Positions 3,601 through 36,294 of a stretch of DNA of 39,722 nucleotides are shown here, one piece after another. The notes beneath the pieces are model-generated. The model was not told where the DNA came from. It made no database searches and saw only the letters and a program-made list of their open reading frames with translations. Position 1 is the stretch's first letter. Every line of letters begins with the position of its first letter. The position numbers and the translations under genes were made by a program. Source of the DNA: a virus. The stretch lies in IMG/VR virus record IMGVR_UViG_3300028883_000084, positions 1-39,722 of that record. One strand, given 5' to 3'.

Positions 3601-3770
3601 ACTTCGTACCTGATAGAGTAAGATATTATCTCCTTGACTGGAAAGATAGAAACATGAAAGCGTTTAAAGAAATGACCGGAAAGGAATCATTAAGGGAATT
3701 GAACAGGAGGCAAATAAAGGATTTGTTTAATAAAGTAGCGTCAAGAGATTCACAAATACTAGATAGCTAA
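3585..3770 (+). CDS. Small hypothetical protein
   Basis: A 61-residue basic, probably helical protein with no family recognised. Its stop codon lies inside GCTAACC, the word that also ends the next gene and begins a 34-base repeat leading into the following ATG. Base use differs from the surrounding phage genes, suggesting an inserted cassette. Another ATG at 3655 could serve as a shorter start. Confidence 0.5.
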   Translation: MEKAIDFVPDRVRYYLLDWKDRNMKAFKEMTGKESLRELNRRQIKDLFNKVASRDSQILDS

Positions 3771-3799
3771 CCAAAACCCAAGACAATGAGTAAAGCAGA
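3766..3799 (+). repeat. 34-base intergenic/start repeat, copy 1
   Basis: It runs from GCTAACC through the ATG to AGTAAAGCAGA. It is repeated with one mismatch at 3973-4006; the ATG part recurs at 6046-6065. It spans one gene's stop codon and the next gene's first five codons (MSKAE). Confidence 0.8.
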
Positions 3800-3977
3800 G
3801 TACAGAATAGAAACCCTAAAAGCAAGTGAAGACAAAGCGTACTTGCCTGCTCAGATATTGGGAGGCAAAAAGATACTTTGGACTACTGAACCAATGAGTA
3901 TATCTGAATGTAAGGCGTTTATAGATAGATTTTCTCAGCAGCGCTGGCAATGGATTTTATTAGGTATAAAGCGCTAA
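3786..3977 (+). CDS. Small hypothetical protein beginning MSKAE
   Basis: A 63-residue soluble protein, not recognised, with Trp-rich segments (KILWTTEP, RWQWILLG). Its first five codons and leader duplicate those of the gene at 3993, although the rest of the two proteins differs. The gene ends inside GCTAACC. The pattern suggests that unrelated coding parts were placed behind copies of one initiation module. Confidence 0.5.
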   Translation: MSKAEYRIETLKASEDKAYLPAQILGGKKILWTTEPMSISECKAFIDRFSQQRWQWILLGIKR

Positions 3978-4006
3978 CCAAAACCAAAGACAATGAGTAA
4001 AGCAGA
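3973..4006 (+). repeat. 34-base intergenic/start repeat, copy 2
   Basis: Same element as 3766-3799, differing at one base in the C/A-rich leader. It again joins a stop codon to an MSKAE start. Confidence 0.8.
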
Positions 4007-5019: not shown

Positions 5020-5652
5020 ATGGGAAAGAAATTATTAGAACTGTTCGCAGGGTCCAGAAGCATAGGAATAGAGGCCCAAAAGCAAGGCTTAGAAGTTTTT
5101 TCTATCGATTGGCAGCCGTTTAACGGTATAGACTTAGCTATAGATATAGAAGAACTAACGCCTAAACATATACCTTTTATCCCGGATGTAATCTGGGCCT
5201 CTCCAGATTGCACGACTTACAGCATAGCAGCCTGCAGCACTCACCGAACGAATAGCATAGAGCCCAAAACTGAATACGCTAAGAAATGCGATAGGACAAA
5301 CCGGCATTTTATAGAGCTAATAAAATTTTATCTAAAGCTTAATCCGTCCTTACTTTTTTTTATAGAGAATCCTCGCGGAATGCTTCGTAAAATGCCTTTT
5401 ATGCAAGATTTCGATAGGCATACTATTTGGTATTGTAAATACGGAGACTTAAGAGCTAAGCCTACGGATATCTGGACTAACTCTATCGAGTGGGTGCCTC
5501 GCCCCCAATGCAAAAACGGCAATAAAAACTGCCATCACCAGCCAGCCCCTAGAGGGTCTAGAACAGGCACCCAAGGAGTAAAAGGCTCCTACAACAGATC
5601 GAAAATACCGGAAGAACTCTGTAGAGAAATTATAGCTAGTTGTATTGAGTAA
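5020..5652 (+). CDS. C5-cytosine DNA methyltransferase-like protein
   Basis: A 210-residue protein. Motif I is LLELFAGSRSIGIEA (residues 5-19), the AdoMet-binding loop. A motif IV-like WASPDCTTYS carries the candidate catalytic Cys64, and FIENPRG (114-120) stands for the ENV motif. Usual Dcm-type enzymes exceed 300 residues, and a large target-recognition domain is not visible, so specificity may be low or activity altered. Methylating phage DNA would protect it from host restriction, fitting the nearby Lar-like gene. The start is the recurrent aatATGGGA context. Confidence 0.75.
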   Translation: MGKKLLELFAGSRSIGIEAQKQGLEVFSIDWQPFNGIDLAIDIEELTPKHIPFIPDVIWASPDCTTYSIAACSTHRTNSIEPKTEYAKKCDRTNRHFIELIKFYLKLNPSLLFFIENPRGMLRKMPFMQDFDRHTIWYCKYGDLRAKPTDIWTNSIEWVPRPQCKNGNKNCHHQPAPRGSRTGTQGVKGSYNRSKIPEELCREIIASCIE

Positions 5653-6045: not shown

Positions 6046-6051
6046 AAGACA

Positions 6052-6069
6052 ATGAGTAAAGCGGAATGA
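6052..6069 (+). pseudogene. Orphan start module MSKAE-stop
   Basis: AGACAATGAGTAAAGCGGA, a third copy of the start module seen at 3781 and 3988, is followed directly by TGA, leaving a five-codon frame. It looks like an initiation module whose coding part was lost or replaced by the next insert. Confidence 0.4.
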
Positions 6070-6079
6070 ATTTTAAACC

Positions 6080-6406: not shown

Positions 6407-6628
6407 ATGAACGATAATAAACAAACCAAAGGCCATGCACCCTTAGCAGGTGTTGTGCTTCCGTGCCCGTTTTGTGGGGGAAATGATTTAATATTTCACG
6501 AATCTAAATCATCTGATAAAACTATGACTTGGCATCATTTACATCACGGGCCGACAAAGGAATGCTCCGTTTCATTTATGCACAGCGACAAGGATAGACT
6601 TATTGAATTGTGGAATAGCAGGGCATGA
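6407..6628 (+). CDS. Lar-family restriction alleviation-like zinc protein
   Basis: A 73-residue protein with the Lar layout: an N-terminal LPCPFCGG zinc knuckle, a middle segment with one further Cys, and a C-terminal LIELWNSRA matching the family's xxWNxR ending. Rac-prophage Lar relieves host type I restriction. The second CxxC pair of typical family members is not obvious here (only Cys at KECSVS plus several His), so zinc ligation may differ. It lies in a cassette-like block beside a methyltransferase gene, a plausible anti-restriction pairing. Confidence 0.75.
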   Translation: MNDNKQTKGHAPLAGVVLPCPFCGGNDLIFHESKSSDKTMTWHHLHHGPTKECSVSFMHSDKDRLIELWNSRA

Positions 6629-7675: not shown

Positions 7676-7722
7676 AAACACTTAAAAACGTAGTAATTAG
7701 TATAAATTCTTAATTTAAGCAA

Positions 7723-7872
7723 ATGTTTATAATTTGGGTAATTATCTCGCTTATTAATAGCGGTAAAATCGACTGGGAAGTGAATAAATTGAACGTTTTA
7801 GACTCTTGGGCTATGCCTTTTCTAATAGACCTGCTTCTAATATTGATCTATTTAACTCTAAAGCAGCTCTAA
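7723..7872 (+). CDS. 49-residue membrane peptide
   Basis: A short frame encoding two hydrophobic stretches, MFIIWVIISLI at the N-terminus and PFLIDLLLILIYLTL at the C-terminus, joined by a polar loop. The start follows an A-rich leader (aagcaaATG). It lies at the end of the accessory operon, just before the AT-rich repeat region. Length, composition and position support a real gene, but the role is unknown. Confidence 0.45.
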   Translation: MFIIWVIISLINSGKIDWEVNKLNVLDSWAMPFLIDLLLILIYLTLKQL

Positions 7873-8004
7873 TATTTTATTTCCTCAATCTAAAAAATTA
7901 GGATTCTGAGGTCTTCCTAGTGTAAACAATGCTGTAAACAATAAAAATTCATTGTTTACACTCCAGAGGAAAATATCCGAAAAATTTCCGTAAAACTTCT
8001 ATTC

Positions 8005-8158
8005 GTAAACAATAATAAACAATAAAAAACAATCATTGTTTACTCTGGATTGCTAGAGCCTAAAGGCTTATATGTAATTGTAAACAATAAAACAATAATA
8101 TATTAAAATAGTAGTATAGTGATATTATATAGTATAATATGTAAAAAAATAGGATAAA
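8005..8158. repeat. 154-bp block shared with 31259-31412 (copy 1)
   Basis: It aligns without gaps to 31259-31412 with about 140 of 154 positions identical by manual count. It contains three full iterons and an AGCC-TAAA-GGCT mini-hairpin (8057-8068). Confidence 0.85.
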
Positions 8159-8187
8159 AAAGCTATAAAACGCGTATATAAGTTAAA

Positions 8188-8214
8188 AAGCTCGTTTTTA
8201 TTGTTTACGAGCTT
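8188..8214. promoter_or_regulatory. 8-bp hairpin around an iteron
   Basis: AAGCTCGT (8188-8195) pairs with ACGAGCTT (8207-8214). The iteron ATTGTTTAC (8200-8208) lies in the loop and edge of the stem. It could be an extrusion or termination site within the repeat region. Confidence 0.4.
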
Positions 8215-8379
8215 AAAAAATAGCTAAATTCTCAATATTCACAGGCTATACAGACGTAAACAATAAAAAAAAGCATTGTTTACAGCGAAACCTCAAACCT
8301 TTACCAGTAGCGGCTTGTAGCGTAAACAATGATTGTTTACATATTATTTTTTAATTATCGGTTAAAATTTCTTTTTCTA

Positions 8380-8387
8380 TACTTTTG
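8380..8387 (+). promoter_or_regulatory. Promoter -7 box TACTTTTG for the packaging operon
   Basis: A perfect match to TAnnTTTG, 17 bases before the small-terminase ATG. The sequence from TTAAAATTTC to ACTTTTG is almost the same as at the replication-operon promoter (31642-31649). No clear -33 TTTG is present, so an activator bound at the upstream repeats may be needed. Confidence 0.6.
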
Positions 8388-8403
8388 TTAGAAACTTTTT
8401 AAG

Positions 8404-8898
8404 ATGGGCAAACGAATAGAATTAGATAGAGACCAAGAGGATTACTGGGATAAAAGAAAACGAAGAGGGCGGCCTAAAGCCCTTAAGTCCCCAGATCATC
8501 TCTGGAGCTTAGCCTGCGATTATTTCAAAAGAAGAGATAAGCAGAAAATAGTAAAAAAGGAATTTATTCGGGGAGGAGAGAGAGCCGGAGAAGTTGTAGA
8601 CTTGGAGCAAATGGTCCCTTATACTTGGCAGGGTTTTGAAGCGTATTTGCACGAACGTAAAATTATCGCGCACCTTAGAGACTACAGGGCTAACAAGGGA
8701 AATTACTACGACGATTACTCGGAAATTCTAATCGTGATAGGGCATATTATGTACGATCAGAAGTTTACTGGCGCCGCCTCTGGAGCCTTCAATGCTAACG
8801 TAATTATCCGCGATCTCGGCCTCTCAGAAAGAACAGAAATGTTAATACAACAAGAGCAGCCGCTTTTCGGAGATACCGACGAAGAAGAGAACGACTAA
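8404..8898 (+). CDS. terS: Terminase small subunit
   Basis: A 164-residue protein directly upstream of the large terminase gene. It begins with a basic GRPKAL stretch and has the aromatic/charged layout of small terminases (TWQGFEAYLHE, then a hydrophobic helix through IVIGHIMYD, then ASGAFNANVIIRDLGL). An acidic tail (GDTDEEEND) ends it. Small subunits form a ring that recognises the packaging site on phage DNA. It is the first gene of an operon behind the iteron cluster. Confidence 0.75.
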   Translation: MGKRIELDRDQEDYWDKRKRRGRPKALKSPDHLWSLACDYFKRRDKQKIVKKEFIRGGERAGEVVDLEQMVPYTWQGFEAYLHERKIIAHLRDYRANKGNYYDDYSEILIVIGHIMYDQKFTGAASGAFNANVIIRDLGLSERTEMLIQQEQPLFGDTDEEEND

Positions 8899-8906
8899 TT
8901 CGATAT

Positions 8907-10178
8907 ATGGGCGCGCTAAAACATATAGTTGGCGAGATACCCGGCTTTAAGTATACTACGGCCATAGCCAAGCTTCGCAAGTTAACTAAGCGTTTTAGGA
9001 TTGTCCCTGGAGGAACCTCAGCTGGCAAGACGTACGGTATACTCCCTATTTTAATCGACAGAGCGGCTAAAACTCCTAATTTAGAGATATCGGTCGTATC
9101 CGAATCTATTCCGCACTTACGTAAAGGGGCGCTTAAGGATTTCCTTAAGATTATGAAGGTAACCGGCCGCTATATTGACGCCAACTATAACCGGACCTTG
9201 TTAACCTATCAATTTTCTAACGGCTCCTACATTGAGTTTTTTAGCGCAGACCAAGAGGAGAAAGTTAGAGGACCTCGCCGTAATATCCTCTACGTTAATG
9301 AAGCCAACGCTATTAATTTCGATACTTTCCATAATCTCGCTATCCGTACCGATCTCGAGATATGGTTAGACTTTAACCCTTCTAGGGAGTTCTGGGCACA
9401 CACGGAGTTAGCCGAATATAAAGAGCCGGATGCAGACTGGCTAACGCTTACTTACGAGGATAACGAAGCCCTTAGCCCGGCTATCGTAAAAGAGATTGAG
9501 AAGGCTAAAATTAAAGCCTTTATTAATCCGAATTTAGAGCCTTCTCAGCTTCTAGAGGAGAGGAATATTAAGAGCAATTACTGGGCTAACTGGTGGAAGG
9601 TTTATGGCCTTGGGCTAGTCGGCTCTCTAGAGGGTGTAATATTTAGTAATTGGACCACTATAAACGAGCTACCTAAAGCAGCTAGGTTACTAGGCTACGG
9701 TATGGATTTCGGCTGGAGTAACGACCCTAGCACCTTAGTAAGCGCTTGGGTTTATGAGGGTAAAGTAATCTGGAAGGAGCATTTTTACCAGTCAGGATTA
9801 AAGACTAGAGAGATAGCCGAGCTTATGAGAAAGGCAGGCGTAAGGAAAACGGACTTTGTAACGGCCGATAGATCGAACGGCCGATTAATTACTGAGTTAG
9901 AGGAGTTCGGCTTTAAAATACGGAAATCGGAGTCCGGACCTGGTAGCATAGAGCTAGGTATAGAAACTCTGCTAAAAGAGGAATTCTTAGTTACGGCCGA
10001 TAGTGTTAACATGATTAACGAGCTTAGAAATTACTGCTACGAGAAGGATAAAACAGGTAAGACTCTAAACGAACCTATAGACGACTTTAACCACGCTATA
10101 GACCCTATGCGGTATTTAGCCTACTTCAAATTAAGCGCTCAGAAAAGCCGCAAGCGAGGAGTAAAAAGGAGAAATTAA
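8907..10178 (+). CDS. terL: Terminase large subunit (packaging ATPase and nuclease)
   Basis: A 423-residue protein. The Walker A loop is GGTSAGKT (residues 35-42) and the Walker B-like strand ILYVNEA (127-133) has Asn in the usual first-acidic place, as in several phage TerL groups. The C-terminal RNase H-like nuclease shows MDFGWSNDP (near 264), ADRSN (near 318) and DDFNHAIDPMRY (near 392). It pumps DNA into the prohead and cuts concatemers. The start is 8 bases after the small subunit. The length is normal to slightly short. Confidence 0.95.
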   Translation: MGALKHIVGEIPGFKYTTAIAKLRKLTKRFRIVPGGTSAGKTYGILPILIDRAAKTPNLEISVVSESIPHLRKGALKDFLKIMKVTGRYIDANYNRTLLTYQFSNGSYIEFFSADQEEKVRGPRRNILYVNEANAINFDTFHNLAIRTDLEIWLDFNPSREFWAHTELAEYKEPDADWLTLTYEDNEALSPAIVKEIEKAKIKAFINPNLEPSQLLEERNIKSNYWANWWKVYGLGLVGSLEGVIFSNWTTINELPKAARLLGYGMDFGWSNDPSTLVSAWVYEGKVIWKEHFYQSGLKTREIAELMRKAGVRKTDFVTADRSNGRLITELEEFGFKIRKSESGPGSIELGIETLLKEEFLVTADSVNMINELRNYCYEKDKTGKTLNEPIDDFNHAIDPMRYLAYFKLSAQKSRKRGVKRRN

Positions 10179-12176: not shown

Positions 12177-13875
12177 AGGGCCGGAGAAAAAACAGACAAT
12201 AGCTAAAGCTGTAAACCACGAGGAGCGCCTCAAATTTCACGCTGAAAGCTACCTTTATCCGTCTGGAATCTCTAAGCCTCTAACTCAGTTTTTAGACTGG
12301 GTTAGAGAGCTACTCCCTAAAGACAAATTCTCTATTTTCGTTAGCCTCTTTAAGCTTCCCGTCCTTACGGTCGATTTAACGGAGACGATCTTTAACGAGC
12401 TGGAACGAGTTTTCGACGGCCGAAACGCTGCAGTTAATTACCAGTTCGAATCCCCGGACTTATTAGACGACTGGGAAGAGTACAGAACAGAGAAGCTAAA
12501 AGAGCCGTCCGTTTGGCGGGAAAAAGCTTGGGACCAGATAAAATCCGGCATTAATTCGGTTATCGTTATCGATCTACCTAGAGAGCAGCTGGATATGAGA
12601 CCAGAGCCTTATTTTTACTTTCTAGATATTCGAAACGTTATAGACTATAGTTTTAGAAATGATCGCATCGAATGGATAATTTTCAAATGCCGAGAGGGCG
12701 AGATAACAGTTATCGACGACGAGCATTACCAAGTTTTTACCCTTGACGGAAACGGACAAGTAGCAGGTGAGGCCATATTAGAAGAGGCTCACGAACTCGG
12801 CTACTGCCCCGCGCAATTTCTTTGGTCCGATTCCTTGACAAAAGAAGAGCCAGACTTAAAGAAATCTCCTTTATCCGCTCAATTAAGTAATTTAGATTGG
12901 CTGCTCTTCTACTCGATCAGTAAGAGGCATTTAGACCTCTACGCCCCTTATCCTATATATTCGGCTTACGAGGCTGATTGCGATTTCCAAAATAACGAGA
13001 CAGGAGACTACTGCGACGGCGGCTATTTAAGAGGCGACGACGATAATTATAAGGTCTTAAGAGACGGCGGAGTTATGCAATGTCCGGTATGCGCCGAGAA
13101 AAGACTAGCAGGAGTAGGAGCTTTTATCGAAGTGCCGGCCCCTCAGTCGAAAGAGGACCCAGACCTCCGAAACCCCGTTTCTATTACTCAGATCGATAAA
13201 GCAAGTTTAGAATATAACGTCGAAGAGGTTACTAGGCTAGGAGACCATATTTTTAACTCCGTAGTAGGGGTAGGCGGAGACGTTACAGCTAAGAAAGCCG
13301 TAAACGAAAAGCAAGTTATAGCTAACTACGAGAGCCGCTCTACGATTATAAACGCCTTAAAGCAGAATATCGAGAAAGCCAGGCGTTTTACAGCCGAAAC
13401 TATCTGCCGTCTTCGATATGGTAACGAATTTAATTCGGCTAGTATCAATTTAGGTACAGAGTTCTATATCTATACTATAGACGACCTTTACGAGCAGTAT
13501 AAAGCAGCGAAAGCCAACGGCTCCAGCGAGGCAGAACTAGACCAGATCAATAGCCAGATATTAGAGACTGAGTATAGGAATAATCCTAACCTAATGCAGC
13601 GTATGTTAGTGCTTAAACATTTGGAGCCTTACAGGCATTATACGCTAGAGGAGCTTATGAAAATGGGCGAAAAAAACTGGATAGACCCTCTACTACTACA
13701 GATAAAAATAAATTTTAATAGATTTGTAGATAAATTTGAACGTGAGAATATGAACGTAGTCGAGTTCGGCTCGCAAATAGAGTTCAATAAAAAGATCGAA
13801 AACATAACCAATACTTTTATAGACTATGTCAAACAGGAACAAAAACAACGGGGGCAACTCGACCAAGGAGAGTAA
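12139..13875 (+). CDS. Portal protein
   Basis: A 578-residue acidic protein of portal size, in portal position between terminase and scaffold/capsid genes. It has the mixed helical layout of SPP1/HK97-type portals, with a long helical stem and C-terminal helix (NFNRFVDKFERENMNVVEFG onward). A four-Cys insertion, Cys-x-Phe...DYCDGG...CPVC, lies near residues 279-323 and may bind zinc. Portals form the dodecameric ring through which DNA enters the head. The assignment rests on position, size and layout. Confidence 0.75.
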   Translation: MALASNLVKQRVEGPEKKQTIAKAVNHEERLKFHAESYLYPSGISKPLTQFLDWVRELLPKDKFSIFVSLFKLPVLTVDLTETIFNELERVFDGRNAAVNYQFESPDLLDDWEEYRTEKLKEPSVWREKAWDQIKSGINSVIVIDLPREQLDMRPEPYFYFLDIRNVIDYSFRNDRIEWIIFKCREGEITVIDDEHYQVFTLDGNGQVAGEAILEEAHELGYCPAQFLWSDSLTKEEPDLKKSPLSAQLSNLDWLLFYSISKRHLDLYAPYPIYSAYEADCDFQNNETGDYCDGGYLRGDDDNYKVLRDGGVMQCPVCAEKRLAGVGAFIEVPAPQSKEDPDLRNPVSITQIDKASLEYNVEEVTRLGDHIFNSVVGVGGDVTAKKAVNEKQVIANYESRSTIINALKQNIEKARRFTAETICRLRYGNEFNSASINLGTEFYIYTIDDLYEQYKAAKANGSSEAELDQINSQILETEYRNNPNLMQRMLVLKHLEPYRHYTLEELMKMGEKNWIDPLLLQIKINFNRFVDKFERENMNVVEFGSQIEFNKKIENITNTFIDYVKQEQKQRGQLDQGE

Positions 13876-14203
13876 CGCCGAAGAAAGCGCAGCTAAAGAC
13901 TTCGCAGAAGAGGCTAAGCAGCCAGAAGAGGCTAAGCAGCCAGAAGAGGCTAAGCAGCCAGAAGAGGCTAAGCAGGATTTATCCGCTAAAAATGGGCCAG
14001 TAACTAAGAATTACAAAGTGCCTAAAGGCGAGGAAAAATTCGTCCACGTCGAAGTAGAAAAGAAGAAGTTTAACGCCGATACGGGCGAAAGACTCTCTAA
14101 GCCTTTCGTTCAAAAGTTCAATGTTAAGGAGTGGCCACAGGTTAAGAAAGACCTACCAGGTTTAGGCTATAACTCTGTACACGTCTTACACGAGCCTAAG
14201 TAA
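13826..14203 (+). CDS. Hypothetical protein with EEAKQP repeats
   Basis: A 125-residue hydrophilic protein. Its N-terminal 55 residues are low-complexity and acidic, with EEAKQP repeated in tandem. The C-terminal part (VPKGEEKFVHVEVEKKKFN onward) looks like a small folded domain. It overlaps the portal gene by 50 bases in another frame. A head-assembly accessory role is likely from position only. Confidence 0.6.
   Translation: MSNRNKNNGGNSTKESNAEESAAKDFAEEAKQPEEAKQPEEAKQPEEAKQDLSAKNGPVTKNYKVPKGEEKFVHVEVEKKKFNADTGERLSKPFVQKFNVKEWPQVKKDLPGLGYNSVHVLHEPK
13907..13975 (+). repeat. 18-bp tandem repeat (3.8 units)
   Basis: GAAGAGGCTAAGCAGCCA occurs three times exactly (13907-13960), followed by 15 bases of a fourth copy. 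It encodes the EEAKQP repeats, and perfect DNA identity suggests recent or unstable expansion. Confidence 0.9.
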
Positions 14204-15717: not shown

Positions 15718-16758
15718 ATGTCTTTAGTTAATACTAGAATCCAGAATGTTAGATCAAATTCTAACTTGGACAAAAACGAGCTGCGCCCGAGCCGCTACGG
15801 GGCTTTAGATTTGTTTATGATGCAATCTATGCAGCCAGGAGGTATCCTTACGGATGATCTCAAAAAAAGAGCAATGGCTTCGATAGGAAACACGCTGGAA
15901 ACCCCAGTTATAGACTTCGACGCTGGTATTTCAATCGGTTCGACTAGGTCGGTTACGATTGCAGATAGCGAGAATACCTCCCAAATGTATTCGATAAGTT
16001 TTACGACTTATGCCTGGGGTTTTACAATTATCCCAGCTCTTTTTATGAATAATGAATTGAGCGTGCAGGAAGACTTCGAACGTAAGTTCTTGAAGTACCT
16101 GTATAAGTTTGCAGAGACTCTAGATAGCGCGGCTTTATCTGCTCTATCTACAAATAAGACGCAAGTCTTTAACGAGCTGCTTACTTATACTACTACGGCC
16201 AACGTAGTACAAGTTCCTTACGTAGATCGTGAGAATATTATCGGAGACCTTAATCCAATGATGGCCGCTAACGACCATTTCGGAGGCATTCACTTACTCG
16301 GTAACGGGGGAGTAGAGGCAGCTATCCGTAAAATGGCCGAGAAAGGGCTGTATAATGAGGTTAATAAAACTCTAGAGTATAGCGATAAAACTCTCCATTT
16401 CTCTAGCCGTTTGGCTAATGGAGGCGGAGAGCACGCTAATATGTACGGAGTACAATCTGGCTCTTTAGGCGTTCTGCAAAGAATGGAGAGAGAAAGTATC
16501 TTACAGACCTCTATGGCCGACGGTACGGAGTGGGATATCGATACGCTGCCGCTTATCAATTTCCCTGTAGGTACTTATTTCTACGAGAGTAAAGGAGATT
16601 TTAACGCTATCGCTGGAGCCGCTTCTGCGGATATGACGAGAGCGAAGAAAGAGCATTACGGCTTCGCTGTGGATGTAGCTTTCTTAACTCCTTACAATAG
16701 CGACCTTTCTACTATCGCTAATCCGATTATGAAAGCCGCAATCTTAGACCCAGTCTAA
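15718..16758 (+). CDS. Major capsid protein
   Basis: A 346-residue protein directly after the scaffold region, of normal size for an HK97-fold capsid protein. An N-terminal helical arm is followed by mixed alpha/beta sequence, with a conserved-looking end (YGFAVDVAFLTPYNSDLS). It is flanked by its own leader and a strong terminator, as expected for a highly expressed gene. Fold assignment is from position and size; sequence motifs for this fold are weak. Confidence 0.75.
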   Translation: MSLVNTRIQNVRSNSNLDKNELRPSRYGALDLFMMQSMQPGGILTDDLKKRAMASIGNTLETPVIDFDAGISIGSTRSVTIADSENTSQMYSISFTTYAWGFTIIPALFMNNELSVQEDFERKFLKYLYKFAETLDSAALSALSTNKTQVFNELLTYTTTANVVQVPYVDRENIIGDLNPMMAANDHFGGIHLLGNGGVEAAIRKMAEKGLYNEVNKTLEYSDKTLHFSSRLANGGGEHANMYGVQSGSLGVLQRMERESILQTSMADGTEWDIDTLPLINFPVGTYFYESKGDFNAIAGAASADMTRAKKEHYGFAVDVAFLTPYNSDLSTIANPIMKAAILDPV

Positions 16759-16783
16759 TAGGTTATTAATTGAATAGTTGAGA

Positions 16784-16815
16784 AAGGGGAGAGGCAAAAA
16801 GCCCCTCCCTTTTTT
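16784..16815 (+). terminator. Intrinsic terminator after capsid gene
   Basis: A GC-rich 12-bp stem with one mismatch (16784-16795 with 16801-16812), an AAAAA loop and a T run to 16815. It would cap the abundant capsid transcript and reduce downstream tail expression. Confidence 0.85.
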
Positions 16816-16835
16816 CTTTAAAAACTCTTAGCGCA

Positions 16836-18137
16836 ATGTACCGAGTAAGCGATTTAAAAAGCGGCTATAGCGGCCTTATAGGATGGAGGCAGAACCAGAA
16901 AACTAGCACCCTACAAATAGCTAATAGTTTAACGGCTAGCTCTAGCGGCCTTTACTTTCAAGATTTTCACCCTCTTCTAAATATCGAGATTTTAGAACAG
17001 TATGCCCCGGAGTTCGAGGAAGGGACCTACACGGCTTACGATTCTGGAACGGCCTACGCTGTAGGAGATAAAGCGAGCTATTCTAGCGTTAATTACCGCT
17101 GTATAAAAGCCGGCACAGGCAACCAGCCGGATACCTCAGCGGAGTACTGGGAGGTATATACTCCTTTCAGCGAATGGCTACAAGAGCAGACCGAGGCCTC
17201 TATAGCTAAAATGCTGCAAAACCTCTGGACTCAGAAAATAGCCGACAGGACCGCTAAAAACATTCTGGAACATAAGGCGCTATTCGATCGCCCAGGACGT
17301 TTAGCCGATACTATTGATAACGGTAATTATCTCGTAGGTTTCGAAATAACCCCTTTGAGGAGTGATAGCGTAACGCTTAAAATAGATAAGATCGGCGCAC
17401 AGTTTGAAGGAGTGGAAGACCTTACCCTATATCTATTCCATTCTAGCCAGTTGGCGCCGGTCCAGACTATTATTTTAAACAGAGCGAAAGATAAAAGTTT
17501 AGAGTGGTTTACCCCTTCCGAGGAAATCTACCTCCCCTATTTATCGGAGGATACCGACGCGGGGGGTACTTGGTATCTCTGCTACGATCAGAGAGCTTTA
17601 GGCGAGACAGTTAAGGCTATAAAAAAGGATAGGGACTGGAGTAAAAGACCTTGCGGCTCTTGCAATAGTTCAGAAATGATAGCGCAAAAAACTTGGAGCC
17701 GATATTTAGAAATATACCCTTTCAAAAATGGTAACGATTTCGATAGCGGAGACCCAGAGCTATTCGATATATCCGATAATCTGTACGACCTACAGACTAA
17801 TTACGGCCTCAATTTACAAATTACTTTAGAGTGCGACGCTACGGATACTCTAATAGAGCAGCGTCGATCTTTTCAAAATCTTTTAGGTCTGCAAGTGGCC
17901 GCCGATCTGCTTAGATATATGGCTTATAACCCCTCGAATAATATTAACCGTAAGACGCATAATACCAGCGTTCAACAAATATTATACGAGCTTGACGGAG
18001 ATAGCCAAGGGCATAAAAAAAGCGGACTGAATTACGAGTTAGGTAAAGCTATGGAGGCGGCCTCCGTAGATTTAAACGGAATGAGTAGAGTCTGCTACAG
18101 TTGTAACCGTAAAGGGGTTAAGTATAGAACGATATGA
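16836..18137 (+). CDS. Virion protein with chitin-binding-like module
   Basis: A 433-residue protein. At residues 67-108 it carries a motif like carbohydrate-binding modules of the ChtBD3/CBM5-12 type: YDSGTAYAVGDKASY, then YRCIKAGTGNQP and EYWEVY. The rest is unrecognised, with four Cys near PCGSCN and CYSCN. Its place after the major capsid gene and before the gp10-like gene suggests a head-surface or connector protein that displays a sugar-binding domain. It overlaps the next gene as ATGA. Confidence 0.55.
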   Translation: MYRVSDLKSGYSGLIGWRQNQKTSTLQIANSLTASSSGLYFQDFHPLLNIEILEQYAPEFEEGTYTAYDSGTAYAVGDKASYSSVNYRCIKAGTGNQPDTSAEYWEVYTPFSEWLQEQTEASIAKMLQNLWTQKIADRTAKNILEHKALFDRPGRLADTIDNGNYLVGFEITPLRSDSVTLKIDKIGAQFEGVEDLTLYLFHSSQLAPVQTIILNRAKDKSLEWFTPSEEIYLPYLSEDTDAGGTWYLCYDQRALGETVKAIKKDRDWSKRPCGSCNSSEMIAQKTWSRYLEIYPFKNGNDFDSGDPELFDISDNLYDLQTNYGLNLQITLECDATDTLIEQRRSFQNLLGLQVAADLLRYMAYNPSNNINRKTHNTSVQQILYELDGDSQGHKKSGLNYELGKAMEAASVDLNGMSRVCYSCNRKGVKYRTI

Positions 18138-27892: not shown

Positions 27893-28900
27893 ATGAGCTA
27901 CGAAAGTTTAAAAACCGCAATCGAGGACGTAATTACGACCAATGGTAACGGAGAAATTACAGGGGCTATACTTAGAGTCCTCTTAACTAATAATATAGTC
28001 CCTATACTTGGGGAGTCTCATTATAAAGGGATTGCTGTAGCGGCTACTAATCCAGGTACGCCAGAATATGACGTATTTTATTTAGCCACTACTGCAGGGA
28101 CCTACTCCAATTTTGGAGGGGCTAGCTTAAACGCAGGGCTAAGCATACTAGCCTACTCTACTAGCGGCGCCAGTTGGTCCGCTGTTCAATTAATCGATAC
28201 TGATCTATATTTAACGAAAGGAGGTTACGGAAATACGGCCCAAGATTTAGCGGACAGCATAACTGCTAACGCGGGAGATATATCCACAAACGCGAGCGAT
28301 ATAGCTACCAATGCCAGTAATATATCTACTAATACCAGTAATATATCCACAAACGCGAGCGATATAGCTACCAATGCCAGTAATATAGCTACTAACGCTT
28401 CGAATATTTCCGGGCTTTCTTCTAGCGTCGGCAATAATACTGGTAATATATCTACTAATACGACGGATATAGCAGGTAAATTAGATAAAGGCTCTTACGA
28501 AGGGTTGGACGCTGCAGCTTTGGACAACTCTATCCAAACCAATACCGGCAATATATCTACTAATACCAGTAATATAGCTACTAATGTCTCAGATATTGCG
28601 GCGCTAGAAGTCTTAACAGATGCCACAATACCGCTTTTCAAAGCCGTATCTATCAATTCTAGTGCTGAGGCTGGAGATTTTATGCTGGTTACTACTGGAG
28701 GAGACCCTAAAACTATGACGTTGAACGAAGGGCCTACTCTTAACGATGTCGTTAGGGTTACCATAGCAGACTCTGGAGGAGGTACTGTTACTATAGACGG
28801 TAACGGCTTTAATATAAACGGGTCAGGCACGCAGAATTTCTCTACGCAGTACGAAGTTAAAACACTCCAGTTTACAGGTTCGGAATGGGTTATGTGGTAA
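27893..28900 (+). CDS. Tail fibre with seven-residue repeats
   Basis: A 335-residue protein. The N-terminal 110 residues carry a compact module with FYLATTAGTYSNFGG, common at the attachment ends of Bacteroidetes phage fibres. Residues 125-240 are mainly seven-residue repeats of the form IxTNxSx, likely a trimeric coiled or beta-helical shaft. The end (about 245-335) is beta-rich with Gly/Thr repeats. It probably mediates adsorption. Repeat number may vary by recombination, since the DNA repeats are nearly exact. Confidence 0.75.
   Translation: MSYESLKTAIEDVITTNGNGEITGAILRVLLTNNIVPILGESHYKGIAVAATNPGTPEYDVFYLATTAGTYSNFGGASLNAGLSILAYSTSGASWSAVQLIDTDLYLTKGGYGNTAQDLADSITANAGDISTNASDIATNASNISTNTSNISTNASDIATNASNIATNASNISGLSSSVGNNTGNISTNTTDIAGKLDKGSYEGLDAAALDNSIQTNTGNISTNTSNIATNVSDIAALEVLTDATIPLFKAVSINSSAEAGDFMLVTTGGDPKTMTLNEGPTLNDVVRVTIADSGGGTVTIDGNGFNINGSGTQNFSTQYEVKTLQFTGSEWVMW
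28278..28387 (+). repeat. 63-bp-spaced direct repeat in the fibre gene
   Basis: About 47 bases beginning ATATATCCACAAACGCGAG at 28278 recur at 28341, three 21-bp heptad units apart. Further near copies follow to about 28590. Confidence 0.8.
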
Positions 28901-31238: not shown

Positions 31239-31258
31239 TTCCCGTAAAATTCCCATCT

Positions 31259-31412
31259 ATAAACAATGATAAACAATAAAAAACAATCATTGTTTACGTT
31301 GAATTGTTAGAGCCTAAAGGCTTATATGTAATTGTAAACAATAAAACAATAATATATTAAAATATTAATATAATGATATTATAATATATAATACGTAAAT
31401 AAATAGGATAAA
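31259..31412. repeat. 154-bp block shared with 8005-8158 (copy 2)
   Basis: Ungapped counterpart of 8005-8158, with the same AGCC-TAAA-GGCT mini-hairpin at 31311-31322. Confidence 0.85.
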
Positions 31413-31458
31413 TAAAGTAATATGTACTCTATAATAAGTTAGCGGGTTTTATTGTTTT

Positions 31459-31512
31459 ATTGTTTACAAATCGCGGAAAGCCCCGCCCCCAAAGGATTGT
31501 AGCGTAAACAAT
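31459..31512. repeat. 54-bp direct repeat, copy 1
   Basis: It begins ATTGTTTAC and ends GTAAACAAT, so each unit has inverted iteron ends. Its core includes GCGGAAAGCCCCGCC, which can form a small GC hairpin in otherwise AT-rich DNA. The exact repeat is at 31534-31587. Confidence 0.95.
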
Positions 31513-31533
31513 CATTGTTTACAAGTTCAAACC

Positions 31534-31587
31534 ATTGTTTACAAATCGCGGAAAGCCCCGCCCCCAAAGGATTGTAGCGTAAACAAT
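31534..31587. repeat. 54-bp direct repeat, copy 2
   Basis: Identical to 31459-31512 over all 54 bases, 75 bases downstream of it. It lies 54 bases upstream of the promoter -7 box. Confidence 0.95.
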
Positions 31588-31641
31588 AAAATTTTTTTAA
31601 TATTTTCTTATTAATATTTTCAATTTTAAAAATTTCTTCTA

Positions 31642-31649
31642 TACTTTTG
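31642..31649 (+). promoter_or_regulatory. Promoter -7 box TACTTTTG for the replication operon
   Basis: A perfect TAnnTTTG match, 23 bases before the regulator ATG. The preceding bases (TTAAAAATTTCTTCTA) nearly match those at the packaging promoter (8380-8387), so both operons probably respond to the same factor. Confidence 0.6.
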
Positions 31650-31672
31650 GCTTTCTAATATATTCGTCTTAT

Positions 31673-32107
31673 ATGAAAAAAATTGACCTTAGAGAGATCA
31701 TTAAAGCCGAGGGCTTAAATAAAAAGGAACTTGCTAGACAGCTTTTTCCAGGCAATAAGTACCCAAGTCTATCTCTTAACAGGATAATTAACGGAGAGGC
31801 TTTATTAGATGCCGACCAAATAAGTAAACTTTCTTTAATAACAGGTAGGAATATTTCGGACCTATTCGATACTGGGAGCTGGAAGACTACTAAATCTAAA
31901 GATAGTTCTCCGCATCTACATATATTTGAAAACGGTAGCTATAAAGTGGAGTACGACGCAGCGAGCGGAGCTACTAGACTTTTTCACAGTAATAGCCTTT
32001 TTCACGGTACAGTAATTACTAAGCCAAGTATTACTTTAGACGAATTCCTTAACGAAATCAATTCAATAATTAATAATTACCAAAAAAATGGGAAAAGTAG
32101 AAATTAG
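31673..32107 (+). CDS. XRE/Cro-like DNA-binding regulator
   Basis: A 144-residue protein. Residues 1-62 form a Cro/CI-type helix-turn-helix (LNKKELARQLFPG, then SLNRIINGEALLDADQISKLS). The C-terminal 80 residues contain strand-like segments and a final helix (TLDEFLNEINSIINNY), perhaps for dimerisation. It is the first gene after iteron cluster 2, so it may bind the palindromic GTAAACAAT sites at its own promoter and at the packaging promoter. No protease or Cys/Ser-Lys dyad typical of LexA-like repressors was seen. Confidence 0.7.
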   Translation: MKKIDLREIIKAEGLNKKELARQLFPGNKYPSLSLNRIINGEALLDADQISKLSLITGRNISDLFDTGSWKTTKSKDSSPHLHIFENGSYKVEYDAASGATRLFHSNSLFHGTVITKPSITLDEFLNEINSIINNYQKNGKSRN

Positions 32108-32487: not shown

Positions 32488-33690
32488 ATGGAAAAGCACG
32501 AAGAGAGGGACCACGCCCTCCTTTCAGCTTCCGGCTCTAGCCGTTGGCTGAACTGTACGCCGAGCGCTCGTATAGAGGAGGAATTATACCCGAAAAACGA
32601 TACAGGTAGCGTTTATGCCAGAGAAGGTACTCTGGCCCACGAATTAGCCGAGTTAGAACTAAGCTATAAATTCGGAAGTATTAAGAAAGTAGAGTATTAC
32701 CAAAGATTAGAATCTATTAAAGAGCACGAGCTTTACAGTTCAGAAATGCCTGAGGAGGTCGCTAAGTACGTAGATTACGTCTGGGAGGAATATTTAGAGA
32801 GAAGTAAAAAAGCTGAATCTACTCTTTTAATAGAACAAAAATTCGACCTAACTAGCTATGTTCCGGAGGGCTTCGGTACGGGAGATTCTAGTATTATAAG
32901 CGAGCCTTTACTGGAGATCGTAGATTTAAAATATGGTAGAGGTAATACAGTATATGCTCCGGATAACCCTCAGTTAAAACTATACGGCTTAGGCGCCTTA
33001 GAGGAGCTATCCTTACTTTATGAAATTGAAACCGTAAAGCTTACGATCGTACAGCCCCGACTTAACCATTTTAGCAGCTTCGAGATTTCAGTCGAGGAGC
33101 TTTTAGATTGGGGGGAGAATGAAGTAAGACCGAAAGCGGAAAAAGCTTTTAAAGGAGAAGGCGATTTTAAAGCGGGTGAATGGTGCAAATGGTGCAAATT
33201 TAAAGCTACTTGCAAGACTCTAGGAGAGAAAGCTCTTAGTATAGCTAAGGAGGATTTTACCGAAACTAAGGACGTTACTAAAGCTTTAAATCCTTCCGCT
33301 TATTCAGATGAAGAGCTTATCGATATTTACGATAAGCTGCCCCTATTTGAGATTTGGGCAGGGGCAGTTAGAGAGCATTTTTTAGCCGAGGCTTTAGAAG
33401 GTAAGAAATGGCCCGGACTTAAATTAGTGGCCGGTAGATCATCTAGGAAAATAGTAGATGAGGAAGGCGTAATAGAAGCTTTGAAAAAAAGGAAAATACG
33501 CCTTACGGATTTCATGCCTAGAAAGCTTTTAGGCATAACAGGCTTAGAGAAACTACTCGGAGCTAAAAAGTTTCAAAAAGCTTTAGGGCCTTATATTGTT
33601 AAAGCTGAGGGAAAGCCTACTTTAGTAGCTGAAAGCGATAAAAGGCCAGAAATAGGCGGAGTAGCTTCGGCTAAAAACGATTTCGAATAA
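32488..33690 (+). CDS. DUF2800 RecB/Cas4-like nuclease
   Basis: A 400-residue protein of the DUF2800 family, a PD-(D/E)xK nuclease group near Cas4/RecB. Visible motifs are ARQL-type N-terminus (SASGSSRWLNCTPS), GTLAHELAE, GTGDSSII, EIVDLKYGRG with the D...ExK-like core, QLKLYGLGAL, and a Cys group WCKWCKFKATC fitting an iron-sulphur or zinc site. It probably processes DNA ends in replication or recombination. GGAGG lies 8 bases before the ATG. Confidence 0.85.
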   Translation: MEKHEERDHALLSASGSSRWLNCTPSARIEEELYPKNDTGSVYAREGTLAHELAELELSYKFGSIKKVEYYQRLESIKEHELYSSEMPEEVAKYVDYVWEEYLERSKKAESTLLIEQKFDLTSYVPEGFGTGDSSIISEPLLEIVDLKYGRGNTVYAPDNPQLKLYGLGALEELSLLYEIETVKLTIVQPRLNHFSSFEISVEELLDWGENEVRPKAEKAFKGEGDFKAGEWCKWCKFKATCKTLGEKALSIAKEDFTETKDVTKALNPSAYSDEELIDIYDKLPLFEIWAGAVREHFLAEALEGKKWPGLKLVAGRSSRKIVDEEGVIEALKKRKIRLTDFMPRKLLGITGLEKLLGAKKFQKALGPYIVKAEGKPTLVAESDKRPEIGGVASAKNDFE

Positions 33691-33720
33691 ATCAATTATT
33701 TAATTTAATCTATATTAGAA

Positions 33721-34266
33721 ATGTCAGAATTAAAGACAAAGGTTATTATCGGAACCAAGGAAAAACCGGTTAGATTTTCTTACGCTAACGTATTCAAACC
33801 GAAAGCAGCTAACGAAGGCGAGGAGCCTAAATATAGCGTTTCGGTAATTATTCCTAAAGAGAATAAAGAGGATATAGCTAAGATCGAGAAAGCTATAGAA
33901 AACGCTATAGAATTAGGTAAGTCGAAACTTGGGAAAATCCCTAAAGATTTGAAAACTCCTCTTAGAGACGGGGACGAAGAACGCGACGACGAAGCTTACG
34001 CCGATTCGATGTTTATCAATGCAAATAGCAATAGAAAGCCGGGCATTGTAAACGAAGACCTAGAGGAAATTATAGAAGTAGATGAATTCTATAGCGGCTG
34101 TTACGGTAGAGTGGCAGTAAACTTCTACGCTTATAACGTAGGTAAGTCTAAAGGGATTGCTGCAGGTTTACAGAACCTACAAAAAACCGAAGACGGCGAA
34201 GCCTTAAGCGGAGGCTCTACAGCCGCGCAAGATTTCGGAAGTGGGGACGAAGACGACCTCCTTTAA
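33721..34266 (+). CDS. DUF2815 single-stranded DNA-binding protein
   Basis: A 181-residue protein of the DUF2815 group, linked to phage ssDNA-binding proteins. RFSYANVFKPK and YSVSVIIPKENKEDI match the family start. GCYGRVAVNFYAYNVGKSKGIAAGL forms the later strand region, and the acidic tail ends DEDDLL, like SSB tails that bind partner proteins. It always travels with DUF2800 nuclease and polymerase genes in such modules. Confidence 0.85.
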   Translation: MSELKTKVIIGTKEKPVRFSYANVFKPKAANEGEEPKYSVSVIIPKENKEDIAKIEKAIENAIELGKSKLGKIPKDLKTPLRDGDEERDDEAYADSMFINANSNRKPGIVNEDLEEIIEVDEFYSGCYGRVAVNFYAYNVGKSKGIAAGLQNLQKTEDGEALSGGSTAAQDFGSGDEDDLL

Positions 34267-34291
34267 TTTTCTATATTAATTTACCAGAGAA

Positions 34292-34315
34292 GGGCGCCCC
34301 CAGGGCGTCCTTTTT
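34292..34315 (+). terminator. Strong GC hairpin and T run 5 bases before the polymerase ATG
   Basis: GGGCGCCC (34292-34299) pairs with GGGCGTCC (34303-34310) with one G-T wobble, CCA loop, then TTTTT. It meets intrinsic-terminator rules but lies inside the replication operon, so it probably attenuates polymerase and downstream expression. Confidence 0.8.
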
Positions 34316-34320
34316 ACCCT

Positions 34321-36291
34321 ATGGCTAAAACACTCCATATAGATATTGAGACGTACAGCTCCGAAGACCTTCGAAAAGTAGGGGTTTATAAATATATCGA
34401 AAGCGAGGATTTCGAAATTATCCTTCTAGCCTACGCTCTAGACGAAGGGCCTATAAAAATCGTCGATCTGCTCCAAGGCGAGCGAATCCCTAAAGAATTC
34501 ATAGACGCCTATTATGACGACCGTATAGAAAAGCACGCCCATAATGCGAATTTCGAGAGAGTATGTTTAACTATAGGTTACGGTATGGATATACCTCTAA
34601 GGGTTTGGCGCTGCTCGGCTGTTAAATCTCTTTATTGCGGCTATCCTATGGACTTAGACCAAGCGAGTAAAGTATTAAAGCTAGAGAGCGAAGCTAAGCT
34701 CTCTACAGGTAAAGCTTTAATACGCTATTTCTGTATGCCTGTTAAACCTACTAAAACGAACGGCCAGCGAACTCGTAATTATCCAGAGCATAATCTGGAA
34801 AAATGGGAGGAGTTCAAAGAATACAACAAACAGGACGTAGTAGCCGAAAGAGCTCTACTTAAGAAATTAGAAGGCTATGAAATGCCTAAAACAGAACTAG
34901 AACTCTACTTTCTAGATCAGAAAATAAACGACGAAGGTATTAGGATAGATATCCCTTTCGTTAAAAATATCATTAAGCTCGATAAGGAGAACTCTAAAAA
35001 TCTATCGATTAGATTAAAAGAACTAACTGAATTAGAAAATCCGAACAGTCCAGCCCAGTTAAAAGAATGGTTAAGTGAAGCCTTAAACGAAGAAGTTACT
35101 ACATTGGCTAAAGACGCGATACCGGAGCTTATAGAAAAAGCTGGCGCTGGTCCTGTTCGGGAAGTTTTAGAGCTTAGGCAAAAAAGCGCTAGAACTTCAA
35201 TAAAGAAGTATTTAAAGATGCTCTTATCTGTTAACGAAGACGAAAGAGTAAGAGGGCTTTTCCAATACTACGGAGCCAGTAAAACAGGACGCTGGGCTGG
35301 TCGTAGAGTTCAAGTTCAAAATTTACCTAGAACTTATCTAGAGAATTTAGAACTCGTAAGGGAACTTTTCAAAAATCTAATGTTAGAGGATATCGATCTT
35401 TTATACGAGAGCGTCTCGGATACACTAAGCCAATTAACTAGAACCGCTTTTATACCTTCTAAGAATAAGCGTTTCTTTGTTGCTGATCTCTCAGCGATAG
35501 AGGCTAGAGTTACGGCCTGGTTCGCAGAGGAGAGCTGGAGATTAGAGGTATTTAAGACCCACGGTAAAATTTACGAGGCCTCAGCTTCTCTAATGTTCGG
35601 AGTACCTCTAGAAGAAATCGGAAAAGGCTCCGACTTAAGACAAAAAGGAAAAGTAGCGGAGCTAGCTCTTGGCTACCAGGGGGCTTTAGGTGCTATGGTT
35701 AAAATGGGAGGGGAGGATATGGGCTTAAGCGAATCGGAAATGCGTACAATAGTTAAAAAATGGAGAGCTAAAAGCCCTAATATCGTACGCTTATGGAGCA
35801 CTACAGAGAAAGCAGCGTTAAGAGCTGTAAAGACTGGTAAAACTGTAACTCTTAAACAGTTTAAAGGTTTAGAGTTTTCCTACGACGGTAAGGCACTTAG
35901 TATAAAGTTACCCTCTGGGCGAAAGCTATTCTACCCTTCGCCTAGCATCTATCGCAACCGATGGGATAAAGAAGCTCTTAGATATATGGGTTTAGACCAA
36001 ACAACTAGACAATGGAAAAAGATAGAAATGTATGGGGGTAAGTTCGTCGAGAATATAGTACAAGCTTTCTCTAGAGATATCCTAGCCGATATTATGCTGA
36101 GGTTAGATAAAAAAGATTTTAATATCGTTATGCACGTACACGACGAAGTTATTCTAGATATTTACGGCCGAGCTAACGATAGAGGCTTATTAGAATTTAT
36201 CTGCGAGGAAATGAGCCGACCTATATCTTGGGCCCCAGATTTAGTACTAGCCGCGGACGGCTATATAAGTGAATTTTATAAAAAGGATTAA
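34321..36291 (+). CDS. Family A DNA polymerase
   Basis: A 656-residue polymerase. A DnaQ-type exonuclease domain starts at once with LHIDIETYSSEDL. The polymerase domain has motif A as DLSAIEARV (about 388-396), the O-helix region RQKGKVAELALGYQG (about 440-454) and motif C as VMHVHDEVILDI (about 601-612). It replicates the phage genome and has its own proofreading domain, separate from the exonuclease at the left edge. The start is fixed by the DIET motif a few residues in. Confidence 0.95.
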   Translation: MAKTLHIDIETYSSEDLRKVGVYKYIESEDFEIILLAYALDEGPIKIVDLLQGERIPKEFIDAYYDDRIEKHAHNANFERVCLTIGYGMDIPLRVWRCSAVKSLYCGYPMDLDQASKVLKLESEAKLSTGKALIRYFCMPVKPTKTNGQRTRNYPEHNLEKWEEFKEYNKQDVVAERALLKKLEGYEMPKTELELYFLDQKINDEGIRIDIPFVKNIIKLDKENSKNLSIRLKELTELENPNSPAQLKEWLSEALNEEVTTLAKDAIPELIEKAGAGPVREVLELRQKSARTSIKKYLKMLLSVNEDERVRGLFQYYGASKTGRWAGRRVQVQNLPRTYLENLELVRELFKNLMLEDIDLLYESVSDTLSQLTRTAFIPSKNKRFFVADLSAIEARVTAWFAEESWRLEVFKTHGKIYEASASLMFGVPLEEIGKGSDLRQKGKVAELALGYQGALGAMVKMGGEDMGLSESEMRTIVKKWRAKSPNIVRLWSTTEKAALRAVKTGKTVTLKQFKGLEFSYDGKALSIKLPSGRKLFYPSPSIYRNRWDKEALRYMGLDQTTRQWKKIEMYGGKFVENIVQAFSRDILADIMLRLDKKDFNIVMHVHDEVILDIYGRANDRGLLEFICEEMSRPISWAPDLVLAADGYISEFYKKD

Positions 36292-36294
36292 GAT

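Follow-up and report, generated by a model that had tools for sequence, protein, structure and literature searches.

In satellite phage P4, ori and crr are 2 cis-acting sites that carry the same repeats, as do the 2 loci described below, and the alpha protein initiates replication as a helicase whose DNA-binding domain is C-terminal, resembling the role proposed here for VapE; alpha is a primase-helicase whose sequence differs from that of Pri-Rep. Alpha and its ori site are mentioned in PMC6092414, in which the PICI origin is described as lying directly 3' of rep, with 2 sets of iterons around an AT-rich region. Phage SPP1 contains 2 similar origins, oriL and oriR, served by one initiator; they form a distant, similarly organised pair with direct repeats and an AT-rich unwinding element, and are thought to drive the theta-to-sigma switch, with the change to concatemer synthesis proposed to occur at the second origin (PMC6316719, PMC3485210).

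The window, that is, the whole stretch of viral DNA analysed here (39,722 bp, an IMG/VR virus record), carries 2 copies of a noncoding block that, from sequence analysis and structure prediction and with a probability of roughly 0.75, we consider to be paired PICI-type replication origins bound by VapE and arranged like oriL and oriR of SPP1. As in the pri-rep-ori modules of PICI/SaPI, the Rep helicase is of the VapE/PriRep type, with a similar C-terminal domain (PMC6092414; PDB 7pds), and an AT-rich region lies between 2 iteron sets, the iterons differing between elements (PMC6092414). By contrast, PICI/SaPI elements have one origin, placed directly 3' of rep, whereas here a complete phage encoding a family A polymerase has 2 copies, both away from vapE. 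As in SPP1, distant loci share similar repeats and an AT-rich element; SPP1, however, relies on G38P, on G39P as helicase loader and on a helicase of the DnaB type, and its origins are approximately 12-13 kb apart, with oriL within gene 38. No G38P/G39P/G40P system was seen among the scanned ORFs of the window, the replication operon of which encodes an exonuclease, SSB, PolA and VapE.

A duplicated block at 2 operon boundaries

Coding sequence of the window lies nearly all on the + strand. Intergenic region T is followed by the terminase, structural and lysis operon, and intergenic region E by the XRE gene and genes for an exonuclease, SSB, family A polymerase and VapE helicase. The 2 regions contain the following features:

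7676-8403, + strand: intergenic region T, from the early operon end to the terminase small subunit gene; 11 of 18 GTAAACAAT sites
7922-7959, unstranded: extra left iterons of T, at 7922 (+), 7934 (+) and 7951 (-)
8005-8158, + strand: block T, putative origin copy 1
8005 (+), 8015 (+, 1 mismatch) and 8035 (-): left iteron set of block T, then a spacer, an iteron at 8080 (+) and the AT-rich core
8092-8151, + strand: AT core of block T, 53/60 AT; fourth most AT-rich 60-mer of the window
8200-8283, unstranded: right-hand iterons of T, at 8200 (-), 8256 (+) and 8275 (-)
8322-8340, unstranded: palindrome of T, GTAAACAATGATTGTTTAC
8380-8387, + strand: Bacteroidota -7 element TAnnTTTG (TACTTTTG) of T, starting 24 nt before the start codon of the terminase small subunit gene
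31239-31672, + strand: intergenic region E, from the late operon end to the XRE gene; 7 of 18 GTAAACAAT sites
31259-31412, + strand: block E, putative origin copy 2
31346-31405, + strand: AT core of block E, 56/60 AT; most AT-rich 60-mer of the window
31459-31587, unstranded: right-hand iterons of E, inside an exact 54-bp tandem duplication (31459-31512, 31534-31587)
31504-31522, unstranded: palindrome of E, within the region of the 54-bp tandem duplication
31642-31649, + strand: -7 element TACTTTTG of E, starting 31 nt before the start codon of the XRE gene

According to the original prediction, 8005-8158 aligns without gaps to 31259-31412 with about 14 mismatches; we confirmed the ungapped alignment over 154 nt and counted exactly 14. 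The match reaches 177 nt at 88.1% identity (E = 1.5e-61), and the copies are in direct orientation, 23,254 bp apart. The longest exact repeat of the window measures 57 nt, against 14-16 nt in 5 mononucleotide shuffles. The predicted match of the 27 nt at the palindrome (8315-8341 and 31497-31523) is interrupted at 1 position, and the promoter core matches as well; the promoter-like TATACTTTTG ends both regions, 24 nt (T) and 31 nt (E) before the start codons. The 9-bp iteron GTAAACAAT is present in 18 exact copies, with 0.24 expected and a maximum of 2 in shuffled sequences (n = 100); 11 copies lie in 7676-8403, 7 in 31239-31672 and none at any other site of the window. Each block has the form of iterons, AT-rich core and inverted iterons, with a separate Bacteroidota promoter (TAnnTTTG) downstream. 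Of 34 E and T regions, which are not independent, a few being duplicated or from close relatives, 25 have TAnnTTTG in the 120 nt preceding the first gene (shuffles: mean 3.4, maximum 8). The 54-bp duplication of region E encloses GC-rich sequence together with iterons.

Searches of Rfam, and of phage records with region T (blastn), gave no match, and the third-position skew of the window displayed no clear origin signal. The exact palindrome had 20 matches in bacterial genomes, mostly single, and no host regulon was seen among them. The Prevotella genome UW_TS_PREV2_1 (L058, L060, L065-L068, L071 and L072), also brought up by this search, contains many intergenic arrays of approximately 22-bp repeats, including GTAAACAATNATTGTTTAC, which appear to be unrelated to the phage origins. 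Within ORFs of the window, a 21-bp repeat array (28259-28594, in ORF 27893-28900) encodes repeats of a short peptide and probably corresponds to a fibre or coiled coil, and an 18-bp tandem repeat (CAGAAGAGGCTAAGCAGC) occupies 13905-13993 of ORF 13826-14203. Small early ORFs share near-identical gene-start segments (AAGACAATGAGTAAAGC; 3766-3799, 3973-4006 and 6046-6077), and an ORF matching the Lar restriction alleviation family (6407-6628) is located near a DNA methyltransferase homologue (5020-5652).

Conservation of the paired layout

The same layout, with an identical or closely similar iteron, is found in 9 genomes, namely the window, the cultivated Croceibacter phage P2559Y and 7 IMG/VR contigs, and the palindrome was found in 25 viral-contig stretches; several of our counts use loci selected by motif and thus measure the conservation of the arrangement rather than its frequency, and genes of the uncultivated contigs are simple open reading frames. 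In the P2559Y record, the motif is present at both boundaries of the 2 corresponding operons, and in contig G011 region E contains variant iterons only. Across most of 30 aligned E and T regions the order is the same: iterons ending in the palindrome, a spacer of approximately 40 nt, GTAAACAATGTAAACAATAA, the AT core and inverted iterons. Each of the 9 genomes in which both loci are present contains its own E/T duplicate, with 70-88% identity. In the window, E and T are 88% identical, versus 72% for window E and P2559Y T, and recombination may homogenise the twin copies in some lineages, judging from these identities. In the partial contig L046 (G020), a single intergenic region (16508-17465), with a single block, lies between divergently oriented terminase and XRE operons.

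Cultivated Bacteroides, Phocaeicola and Elizabethkingia phages, selected by VapE similarity, display the paired layout with different iterons that are common to E and T. In Bacteroides phage BF503P1 the duplicate is 79.6% identical over 191 nt (iteron CATTTTRCYAC) and in BU241P1 83% over 226 nt (iteron ATGCACAG); TCUEAP1 has the iteron TGTCTCAAA at both loci, and BV57P1, BO668P1 and BC669P3 also possess the paired layout. SJC11 has a weak duplicate (71% over 133 nt) with iterons common to both loci, and the Parabacteroides phages PM682P4 and PM116P1 showed no clear duplicate. Since the iterons differ between phages yet match at E and T, the layout outlasts the iteron, and comparison of the sequences indicates that both copies within a genome change together. 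The suspicion that a two-locus, noncoding architecture is shared among Bacteroidetes phages was therefore correct, and the architecture is widespread, extending to phages with other iterons. Between the small early genes of TCUEAP1 and BU241P1 (L105/L106) there are numerous repeats of 75-95 bp, which may be promoter cassettes.

The positions of the copies are constant, one preceding the early operon and the other the terminase genes, even where the terminases differ. The 88% identity of the window copies could also be that of a chance or recent segmental duplication with no function, a reading we regard as negligible and reject, since it is contradicted by the conservation of both positions across phages, which are constant for several unrelated iterons and with 70-88% identity between copies. 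T adjoins the terminase small subunit gene throughout, and direct repeats could recombine, as would be expected if T were a pac- or cos-linked site and E a cryptic second one, or if the pair recombined genome copies. However, the terminase genes after T belong to several unrelated families that share the block, whereas the VapE/PolA replication module is conserved, and the iteron arrays of more distant relatives follow vapE, not terminase; we thus rejected a pac site and hold a role in packaging or recombination to be very improbable.

A single locus after vapE outside the clade

Directly after vapE, the Bacillota phages phiFL4A and Paenibacillus phage Bob possess an AT-rich stretch and clusters of iterons that are mostly private, and the assignment of the single-locus relatives to Bacillota is based on these 2 phages; Corynebacterium phage Stiles has a weaker set of 3 copies at the same place. 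Iterons within 450 nt after vapE were detected at 44 of 83 vapE loci, a total that includes loci with too little downstream sequence. The clade L117-L134 contributes none of the 44, and no iterons after vapE were found in 19 clade relatives. In the window, vapE overlaps the next gene and the putative origins lie elsewhere, whereas the relatives outside the clade have the element immediately 3' of the rep-type gene. As these post-vapE iterons have the place and layout of the proven origin of PICI satellite islands, they tie the element to the VapE initiator.

Among 14 further clade members picked by VapE, several with upstream sequence too short to judge, 8 have at least 4 clustered GTAAACAAT-like sites (at most 1 mismatch), located approximately 5-7 kb upstream of vapE; 7 of the 8 are contigs outside the group definition, and G012 (contig L121) was omitted from this check. 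In L134, which has a clade-type VapE, no GTAAACAAT cluster was present within the 22 kb examined.

The reading as origins is favoured because the iterons flank an AT-rich core, because the element travels with the VapE/PolA module across unrelated terminases and because in Bacillota relatives a single locus of this kind follows vapE directly.

Candidate iteron-binding proteins

The genes following the 2 regions, and the VapE domain considered below, are as follows:

8404-10178, + strand: terminase genes after block T (small subunit 8404-8898, large subunit 8907-10178)
31673-32107, + strand: XRE-like protein, first early gene; PHROG repressor families, E 4e-4
32488-38688, + strand: replication module of 4 genes, from exonuclease to VapE
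32488-33690, + strand: PD-(D/E)XK exonuclease
33721-34266, + strand: ssDNA-binding protein
34321-36291, + strand: family A DNA polymerase
36295-38688, + strand: VapE helicase
38485-38685, + strand: C-terminal winged-helix domain of VapE (residues 731-797), putatively iteron binding, with group-specific Y755, N761 and T776

The VapE profile matched the satellite-island initiator PriRep1 (PDB 7pds, a structure with bound dsDNA) with E 1.4e-111 over 363-788, C-terminus included. A winged helix is predicted for the last 67 residues (pLDDT 87 in a 117-residue model), and the C-terminal model matched 7pds in Foldseek (E 1.7e-5). VapE is present in the compared phages of both iteron classes, GTAAACAAT and other. 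In a comparison of 12 GTAAACAAT phages with 7 phages with other iterons, the residues invariant in the former were missing from the latter at 3 of 18 invariant positions in the winged helix versus 7 of 240 invariant positions elsewhere (hypergeometric P = 0.025). The same data served to define the iteron groups and to find and count the separating residues, and the GTAAACAAT phages form one clade. The 3 residues, Y755, N761 and T776, lie in what is predicted to be the recognition helix and the wing. A partial Mantel test of iteron against the winged helix, given the core, yielded 0.177 (p = 0.001), a support that was lost when the GTAAACAAT clade was cut to one genome (0.033, p = 0.31); the covariation statistics are thus modest and rest partly on one clade. 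VapE probably binds the iterons via its C-terminal winged helix. In L129, a clade-type VapE with Y755 replaced by W accompanies a variant iteron (GTAAACAC / CTGTTTAC, about 12431-12443), a possible natural specificity change as far as the sequences indicate.

The original prediction offered 2 explanations, namely one factor setting both operons or 2 origins. The latter is favoured by the AT-core layout and the linkage to VapE/PolA; a transcription switch run by the XRE-like protein is not. Under such a switch, the product of the first early gene would bind GTAAACAAT at both loci and repress or activate the early and late operons together, in keeping with each operon having its own block, with the operator-like position of iterons and palindrome close upstream of both promoters, and with an XRE homologue, following the E block, in 9 of 23 motif-bearing records besides the window. 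Single-protein patterns retrieved no XRE protein from viral contigs; related XRE proteins were later found via the DNA motif. However, the recognition helix of the XRE protein does not track the iteron in the few sequences available: G022 has GTAAACAAT as in the window and a very different helix, and BF503P1 a similar helix and a different iteron, a disagreement that leaves this protein unsupported as the common factor. Moreover, no XRE homologue was seen among the inspected early genes of BU241P1, an operator needs no AT-rich core with convergent flanking iterons, and in relatives outside the clade the element follows vapE rather than preceding an operon. We thus find operator arrays unlikely, and the XRE-like protein would act as a regulator and is not our preferred candidate for binding the iterons.

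A transcriptional role may coexist with the origin role. Iteron plasmids often autoregulate adjacent promoters, and the initiator-bound iterons could likewise be both origins and autoregulators of adjacent promoters, coupling the timing of replication and transcription, which would extend the reading as origins rather than exclude it. The window iterons are near TAnnTTTG promoters, with about 40 nt separating the end of the T palindrome from the -7 element downstream, but the distance from block to gene in relatives varies widely, from about 250 to 830 nt, and this second function seems possible, if rather doubtful.

Proposed mechanism and implications

If the blocks are paired origins, VapE would bind the iterons through its C-terminal winged helix, melt the AT core and then load itself, after which the family A polymerase, SSB and exonuclease would copy the phage DNA. 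Replication would start at one copy, and a later start or stall at the other would produce concatemers for packaging, as proposed for SPP1; by this analogy, the T copy may serve the concatemer switch. Tentatively, at somewhat less than even odds, a lineage of Bacteroidota phages would have moved a PICI-type origin off the initiator gene and kept 2 copies at the early and late operon boundaries, with one VapE driving early theta replication from E and concatemers from T, and with iterons changing in step at both, a private origin code for each phage type.

No described origin for these gut and marine Bacteroidota phages was found in the literature searched, which was open-licence only; an earlier description may exist in subscription journals. 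The paired, easily recognised elements would mark candidate origins in many cultivated phages in one step, and also provide a candidate initiator domain. The layout also makes it possible to ask directly if an additional origin next to the terminase genes sets off the change to DNA that is ready for packaging, with the single-copy Bacillota arrangement serving as a natural control.
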